Shown here piece after piece: positions 8,601-11,600 of a DNA stretch of 64,000 nucleotides (position 1 is its first letter; every line of letters begins with the position of its first letter). A model generated the notes under the pieces. The model saw only the letters and a list, made by a program, of their open reading frames with translations. It made no database searches and was not told where the DNA came from. The stretch lies in the NCBI RefSeq assembly GCF_965638725.1, contig NC_134953.1, forward strand, positions 39,422,854 through 39,486,853. The letters run 5' to 3'. This DNA is from Aptenodytes patagonicus. Lineage: Eukaryota > Chordata > Aves > Sphenisciformes > Spheniscidae. The position numbers and the translations under genes were made by a program.

Positions 8601-11600
8601 GAGCATGTGCTTACAGAGCAGAGATTCTGATTAATAGTTGGTGGCTTGGATTCACAGCGTAAGGTTAATCTGAAGGTGTTAAATCACACATAAGTATGCC
8701 CAATAAATAACCAACTGAATTCAGTGACATTATTTCCAGCAGTCTGCAATTTAAGCTGGAATAGAAATAGGATGGGAATTTAAATCAAATAAAAATAAGA
8801 ATGGTGAGATGAGAAGACACAGTAGGCTTTTTCCACTTTCAGGACTGCACTAGCAATCAGCACATGGTCTACAGTAACAGAGCACTTATATTTTCAAGAT
8901 TTCTTCAACAGCATGCAAGATGCCTGCACCTCAGCTCTGGGGCAAGAAGTTCTCTCTCCGCATCACAGGCCTACACGGTAAGCTGCAATGCAAGTTTTCC
9001 TATGCTGCCTACAAAGCCCTTCTCATAGAAGAGAGCATTAAGCTCTCACCCATGCAGCCACGTTTGCCTTATTCAGCAATGCTCTGCACTGCAGCACAGC
9101 TATGGTAGCTTCAGTGCATGGATGCATGTTAGCTGATGCCACCATCATCTGCCACACGTCAGGAGCACAGAATATACATCAAGTTTTCATACAGTTTAGC
9201 TGTAATATCCTTCAGTGATTTTAAACAAAATGGCTTTACACGGCCAGTACCCTGGCCACCTACAATATTTCTAAACTTTTCTCCACCTTTAGAATAAAGC
9301 TAATGCCCTTTGCTCTGTTAAGAACTATCAGTCATCTCCTTAGAATAATTCTTTTTTAATTACGTTTTTGAAGAAAAGCCTTGTTGCTCTATAATGCCTA
9401 AAATGTTTATCAGTTCAGCTGGTGGTTTAGAGGGCTTTCTCCACTAACATGGATTAGAAAAGTTGAAGAGCTACAAAATTTAATACACATTAAAGAATAA
9501 AAATTGTGCCACAGCCAAGAGGCCCAGGCTTCACCAGGTGACTATCTCTCCTCCATCTCTTTACTTGCCCGTGCAAAGTCAAAGTGGGGTTCATACTGTC
9601 CTCCCACTCCATAATTTGCCACCTGAAAAAGAGAAACACAGTGCTTGTGAAGAAGAAAGAGGTGGAGACAGAAAACAGGACTTACCCTTCCAAAATCAAA
9701 ATGAGGCTCATACTGGCCTCCTACTCCGTAGTTGGCTACCTACAGTGAAAGGAGAAGCACAAAATCTAGTAAAGCAGTATTTTATCCAGACAAGAATTTG
9801 ACCATCATCTACAACCTGTTGATAGATGAAGTTTAAAAATCAAGCCATAGGAAATTACAAGTCTCTGCCAGCTAAACTGTACAGTATGCAGCAAAGTCCT
9901 ACTGGGTTTATTCACAGGTAACACTGACTTCACCCAGACTCCTCATCACTGTAGAGCCAGAACCTGTCTCTGAGCTTTAGGGTCTCAGCCCTTCAGTCTG
10001 CCTTTGCAGTTCTTGACTGGACACCAGCTCCCAGCAAAGCCGCAGCTGAACCTTTTCTTCCCCAGGGGTCAGCTTTCTTTGAAAGCTCTTCTGTCCACCC
10101 CCAGCTGGATGATAAAGACATTCTCCCATTTCTGAGTCCCTGCTACTGTCTGATCTCCTGACTCTCAGGTGATAGAACCTGACCAGGAAAGTTTTGAAAC
10201 TCCTGAAGACCTGGACAGCCATGGGCTCCAAGGAGCCCCAAGATGTTTGGCTATAAGAGCAGCAGCACATCCAAGACTAGCACCACAAGATGCAGTGTAC
10301 TCTGGGTAAGGAATCTGGTACTTCCCCAGGGTAGAAAAATATTTTTCTTCCATAGAAACTTTACAAGCTATATTCTCTTCAAAATAGGTCATGGCACTTT
10401 TACATCATTCAAGTTTAAATCACTTTTTGATCTCTATGTCAATAGAGGATCCACTGTCCTTTTTGCCAATTGATTTTTTTTCCCTTCATCTCTTCTGTGT
10501 GTTCATAAGTTCAATTTTCAACCAGATGCTTGGGCATTTTAGCATCAGAAGTCTTGATGGAGTAGCACAGTGGCACTACAGCTTTCAGGAACCACTTTCT
10601 AGGTGTCCTGCTTTCTAGGTATTAACGCTTTCTCAGAATCACTGAAGCAGCTGTTCGTTTAAAAGCCTCAAGCAAATGAATAAAAGTGCTTCTAAAATAA
10701 AATTTACTCAAGTTACATGTACAGTGAGTCTTTCCCACATTACAGAGACACCAGACACACTGTTGGCCTTCTAGGACCAAGGATGGGATGGCAAATCTAA
10801 ACAACCATTCTCTCCCCCTTTCCTTAAGTATCAGTCAAGCTAAACTTTTCACTATCACCCCAGCAGCCAAGTTTGACCCTGCAACGATGAAACTCAGTTT
10901 TATTAGTATAAATAAAAAGGAACTACACATCCACTTCAACAATCATCAGGAGTTTCAGTTATTACTGTTTCCCTCCAGCAACAGAAAGCCATTTCACACT
11001 AAAGTAAGCACTACTCTGCAAAGGTAACTTCATTTCTTTCTCCCTCTAAAAAACCCACTCGTTCTTCCCATGGCCTGGAATCAAACCAGCCATGAAATTA
11101 GCTGCCCCTGGGCTGAACAAGCTTTTGTGGCCACCTCACCAACACTACCTGAGTGAGCGCGGTGCTGCATTCACGATCATACTTGGTCCTACCCAGTTTA
11201 CCTGCAGTTCCTCTGCTGTGGAGACATCAAGTCCTGTTAGGTCCTGTATCCTTGTGTTAATGCGAGATACCACAGGGCTTTCATATCCGGACAACCAAGC
11301 ACTAAAGGGGGGGAATAAGAATTAATAAAATATGGTAGTAATAGGCAGTAAGCTAGCAGTACAAATGCAACATTTGGAATTACTTTGAATTTTTTCATAC
11401 TTTTCAATAATTTGGTAGGATAATCAGAAATATTTCCAGGGCATTATGAAGGCCTGCATTTAATAAACATGTTTTCTAGAAAGAACACTTACAGCTCTGG
11501 TTTAAGGAAGTTCTAAAACTAAGGGCCTTAATTCCCATACTGGACTACCAAATGACTGAAGAAAACGTTCCAAACAGTGAAATCTGCTTCAAGCTGTTTT

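Follow-up and report, generated by a model that had tools for sequence, protein, structure and literature searches.

P4HA1 is the predominant collagen prolyl 4-hydroxylase alpha subunit in most cells, and mutually exclusive transcripts have been attributed to both P4HA1 and P4HA2, as far as the accessible part of a review goes (PMC12525012). For P4HA1, the available passages of two further papers describe one mutually exclusive pair, named 9a/9b or 10a/10b, and in mouse cells the choice within this pair is affected by U2AF1, PTBP1 and SRSF7 (PMC6821156; PMC5224494). The locus considered here lies in a 64-kb window (the whole stretch of DNA that was analysed), which sits on contig C5 of a 1.35-Gb, probably avian genome of 618 contigs. 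It holds two tandem copies of a 71-nt exon, which we take to be the described P4HA1 pair, and two tandem copies of the 54-nt exon that encodes the HxD motif, termed A (5' copy) and B (3' copy) below (Table 1). The 54-nt exon encodes two of the three iron ligands of the enzyme, and the alternative exons of P4HA2 are presumably those named 12a/12b.

In alpha-tropomyosin, exons 2 and 3 are made mutually exclusive by branch points that lie less than about 50 nt from the upstream donor. A donor-branch point distance below about 50 nt also serves as the steric criterion for mutually exclusive exons in the available portions of two studies (PMC5740500; PMC7969005), the first of which counts 57 of 629 clusters (9%) in its human survey as potentially subject to steric interference. 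In human OGDH, according to the accessible text, the exclusivity of exons 4a and 4b is ascribed to branch points 25-41 nt from the upstream donor, the gene using distant branch points within an intron that measures 118-131 nt across birds and mammals (PMC7969005). Two further points from partly available sources bear on pairs of this kind: tandem duplicated exon events in human are mostly ancient (PMC9741552), and GC donors are enriched in alternatively spliced genes, the GC donor of intron 10 in the Caenorhabditis elegans collagen gene let-2 being required for regulated splicing (PMC2490688).

The 54-nt pair resembles the 71-nt pair in that both consist of equal-length tandem homologous exons of the same gene, but the 71-nt pair lies at another place in the protein, differs at many residues and has its copies 1,120 nt apart, whereas A and B differ by one residue and are separated by 63 nt. 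Double inclusion of the 71-nt exons, whose length is not a multiple of three, shifts the frame (none of the three frames of such a transcript has one stop or fewer), whereas the 54-nt pair stays in frame; decay of frameshifted messages could be what enforces exclusivity in the 71-nt pair. The known-type 71-nt pair is intact here too, and together with the 54-nt pair the gene could make four isoforms, as it would under the Gly/Ala switch pictured below. The P4HA2 exons 12a/12b, in the paralogous gene, are likened to A and B by their neighbouring position and very short intron (68 nt here), but there the duplication concerns the exon that follows the HxD exon (copies of 60 and 66 nt), whereas in P4HA1 it is the HxD exon itself. 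With OGDH 4a/4b the likeness would lie in the closeness of donor and branch site; here the whole intron measures 63 nt and the branch adenines are candidates only. In let-2 the GC donor adjoins an alternative exon, as it does at B, in an unrelated gene and phylum, and the role of GC at B is putative.

The open-licence literature searched, as represented by partial texts, gave no mention of a further P4HA1 pair located at the HxD exon, and the string 'P4HA' is absent from the available main text of a survey of human mutually exclusive exons (PMC5740500). Pattern scans of other collections for vertebrate sequence, one each of genome contigs and viral contigs, returned 0 matches. If the pair is used as proposed below, P4HA1 has, beside the 71-nt exons, an alternative pair at its active site, and some vertebrates make enzyme forms that go unmentioned in the available human and mouse passages. 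With their 63-nt intron, A and B would offer a clean experiment of nature on steric enforcement, and also on why nearly protein-identical exons survive so much synonymous change.

Table 1. Features of the P4HA1 locus, as positions in the 64-kb window (a slash marks the exon-intron boundary at donors)
Feature	Position	Strand	Description
P4HA1 coding exons	5553..31621	-	15 exons modelled, both alternatives of each pair counted, signal-peptide exon excluded
71-nt exon, first copy	18537..18607	-	known-type pair, 23 residues
71-nt exon, second copy	17346..17416	-	known-type pair, 23 residues
Upstream exon	11202..11301	-	100 nt, peptide ending in AEELQ, donor CAG/gtaaac
Exon A (5' copy)	9686..9739	-	54 nt, 18 residues, acceptor ...ctgtag, donor AGG/gtaagt
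A-B intron	9623..9685	-	63 nt, 75% pyrimidine
Exon B (3' copy)	9569..9622	-	54 nt, 18 residues, acceptor ...tttcag, donor CGG/gcaagt
Downstream exon	7446..7511	-	66 nt, 22 residues

Gene structure and the duplicated exon

The spliced P4HA1 isoform with B carries the Pfam domains P4Ha_N (E 7e-40), TPR_P4H (4.4e-41) and 2OG-FeII_Oxy_3 (4.3e-15) in the expected order, and the top PDB matches of the spliced protein are P4HA1 chains (N-terminal parts) and P4HA2 chains. Thirteen of the 14 modelled introns are GT-AG, the single GC-AG intron being the one after B. Among the 14 intervals between adjacent modelled exons, that between A and B is the shortest, the second shortest measuring 470 nt.

A and B are a tandem exon duplication of the HxD exon of P4HA1. 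Each copy encodes the same 16 residues followed by Gly or Ala and then Arg, both are in phase 0, and all 18 codons are intact in both. The preliminary description had reported two adjacent 54-nt exons in the same phase and frame, and coordinates, lengths and phase bear this out, as they do the junction ends it named, with the upstream exon ending at 11202 and the downstream exon starting at 7511. Our recount likewise agrees with its figure of 12 differing bases in 54, comprising 11 synonymous changes and one Gly/Ala replacement, so that 17 of 18 residues are identical; ten of the changes fall at third positions, one is a synonymous first-position change (AGG/CGG) and one, the Gly/Ala replacement, is at a second position. 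The proper acceptors and donors ascribed to both copies stand in part: the acceptors of both are AG and A has a GT donor, but the donor of B is GC, both donors being usable-looking.

When 13 exon peptides were queried against the window with tblastn (E <=0.05), a second copy was found for only the HxD exon and the 71-nt exon, and the peptide of B matches two places there (E 1.5e-10 and 5.2e-10). Chance similarity of A and B was rejected on the identity of 17 of 18 residues and on in-window E values near 1e-10; none of 300 shuffles reaches the observed A-B similarity score. Across the whole 1.35-Gb genome, the exon peptide scored in at least four places, namely A, B and a single place each on C12 and C1.

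Age of the duplication and selection

Between A and B, the NG86 method counts 11 changes over about 12 synonymous sites and 1 over about 42 non-synonymous sites. Of the two-fold codons 5 of 9, and of the four-fold codons 5 of 7, have unlike third bases, which is near the saturation expectation. The maximum-likelihood synonymous distance is 2.05-2.28, with a two-sided 95% lower bound of 0.70-0.76 (kappa 2, 4 and 6) and no upper bound inside the scanned range. The flanks of the two exons are no more alike than shuffled sequence, the observed score being reached by 41 of 300 shuffles upstream and by 128 of 300 downstream.

Because synonymous sites look saturated and the flanks are alike no more than by chance, the duplication is read as old, and an old duplication with both copies apparently kept at the protein level is well supported. 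The earlier claim of an old duplication under protein-level selection in both copies thus holds up, on apparent synonymous saturation, chance-level flanks and a single changed residue, though a copy silenced only recently could look the same. With an avian neutral rate close to 2e-9 per site per year, the lower bound on the distance would correspond to an age of about 175 million years, a figure that comes from 16 sites and an assumed rate and that would predate living birds.

Splice signals and proposed mechanism

Besides those in the donor (+3, +4) and in the final AG, the adenines of the 63-nt intron lie at +23, +38, +40, +41 and +44, and yTnAy is matched only once, by TTCAC, whose adenine is the one at +38. 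Since all candidate branch adenines are at most 44 nt from the donor of A, joining of A to B is predicted to be blocked. Very short introns occasionally get spliced; this one is probably too short. A steric block of A-B joining should be regarded as a known but minority mechanism.

The U1 pairing energy of the A donor (-9.7 kcal/mol) is stronger than that of the B donor (-6.4 kcal/mol). The other donors of P4HA1, taken without exon e4 and the terminal exon, range from -4.5 to -10.1 kcal/mol, and because its energy falls within the range of the gene the B donor is not clearly weak. By analogy with the regulated GC donor of let-2, that of B is a plausible regulatory handle. An RNA-structure switch over 9540-9770 is unsupported, as the fold of this segment is no stabler than that of shuffled sequence (z 0.06, with 99 of 200 shuffles equally or more stable).

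We consider it likely that A and B, as products of an ancient tandem duplication of the P4HA1 HxD exon, are used in a mutually exclusive manner that is enforced sterically. The upstream exon (11301-11202) would join A, which would then join the exon starting at 7511, or alternatively would skip A and join B, which would then join the same downstream exon. A and B would not be joinable to each other, the candidate branch adenines presumably being too near the A donor for U1 and U2 snRNP to assemble simultaneously; choice of B would probably need the A donor to be idle, and B, through its GC donor, may be the option open to regulation. The enzymes containing A and B would be distinguished by a Gly or an Ala at the second position past the iron-ligand Asp. 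Transcripts with both exons and with neither have a single terminal stop each (modelled without e4, whose 138 nt leave the frame unaffected), and because both-in and both-out forms keep the frame, nonsense-mediated decay could not enforce exclusivity, which would have to come from the splicing block.

Alternative explanations

An unlikely, though not far-fetched, reading is that only one copy is in constitutive use, the other being a relic silenced so recently that it has kept an intact look. The non-standard GC donor of B would suit such a relic, as would the single-copy state of the other two P4HA-type places in the genome (C12 and C1); against it, 18 codons, AG acceptors and usable-looking donors are kept in both copies. 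How long one copy could have been free is indicated by simulated free drift, in which at most one residue change was seen in 0 of 20,000 runs with 12 substitutions in one copy, and at frequencies of 5e-5 with 9 substitutions, 0.0076 with 6 and 0.20 with 3. After three free substitutions in a recently dead copy the observed pattern would therefore be nothing unusual, but drift over at least half of the divergence fits at 0.0076 or less and is disfavoured. Somewhat less probable still is that both copies are used and yield functionally equal proteins, being redundant or kept for RNA-level splicing control, a reading that overlaps the mutually exclusive pair as regards splicing and departs from it as regards function. 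In its favour, A and B are one residue apart, as against about 15.6 non-synonymous differences over 69 nt in the 71-nt pair (NG86), but in the time that the synonymous divergence implies, redundant copies should have decayed.

Inclusion of A and B together, which would give an internal repeat of 18 residues where the iron is bound, leaves the reading frame open and is nevertheless very improbable, with an intron of 63 nt whose candidate branch adenines all lie at or below +44 and with a product that would double the metal-binding segment of the oxygenase domain, to judge from the Pfam match. An assembly artefact or recent local duplication, for which no supporting sign turned up, can be given almost no weight: with 12 of 54 bases differing, 11 of them synonymously, and flanks no more alike than shuffles, either origin was rejected; mostly synonymous differences beside chance-level flanks would not come from misassembly. 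The sterically enforced, mutually exclusive pair is the explanation we prefer.

P4HA2 and P4HA3 in the same genome

The single exon-peptide places on C12 and C1 are taken for P4HA2 and P4HA3, respectively, names that are partly our assumption, the C12 exon also resembling the P4HA2 chain. In P4HA2 only one HxD exon was found (donor sequence gtaag), followed by the 60-nt and 66-nt alternative exons with a 68-nt intron between them (L012:8333-8526). The yTnAy adenines of that intron are at +55, +60 and +65, so the P4HA2 pair lends no support to the steric threshold. In P4HA3 (L014:4646-4488) the HxD-matching segment is continuous with the segment of the preceding exon, so that the intron which P4HA1 and P4HA2 have at this point is absent.

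Of its 54 bases, the HxD exon of P4HA2 shares 44 with A and 43 with B, the corresponding value for A and B being 42, and it ends in AGG/gtaag, as A does. The proportion of synonymous differences is 0.58 between A and P4HA2, 0.78 between B and P4HA2 and 0.92 between A and B. The residue of human P4HA1 at the Gly/Ala position is, we assume, Ala. From these comparisons one may tentatively picture, as a rather unlikely history, an HxD duplication that predates the split of P4HA1 and P4HA2 in early vertebrates, with P4HA2 having kept an A-like copy, mammals a B-like copy and the present lineage both, as a Gly/Ala switch at the iron site. A tree of the A, B, P4HA2 and P4HA3 exons has one informative site of 51, and because the exon is this short its DNA cannot order the duplication relative to the P4HA1/P4HA2 split.

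Among 10 scored matches (5 in the P4HA1 gene, 4 on C12 and 1 on C1), none was a P4HA1 retrocopy that would show a germline splice choice. Elsewhere in the window, an open frame on the plus strand (56788-57333) matches the reverse transcriptase domain PF00078 and is probably, we assume, a fragment of a CR1-type LINE.
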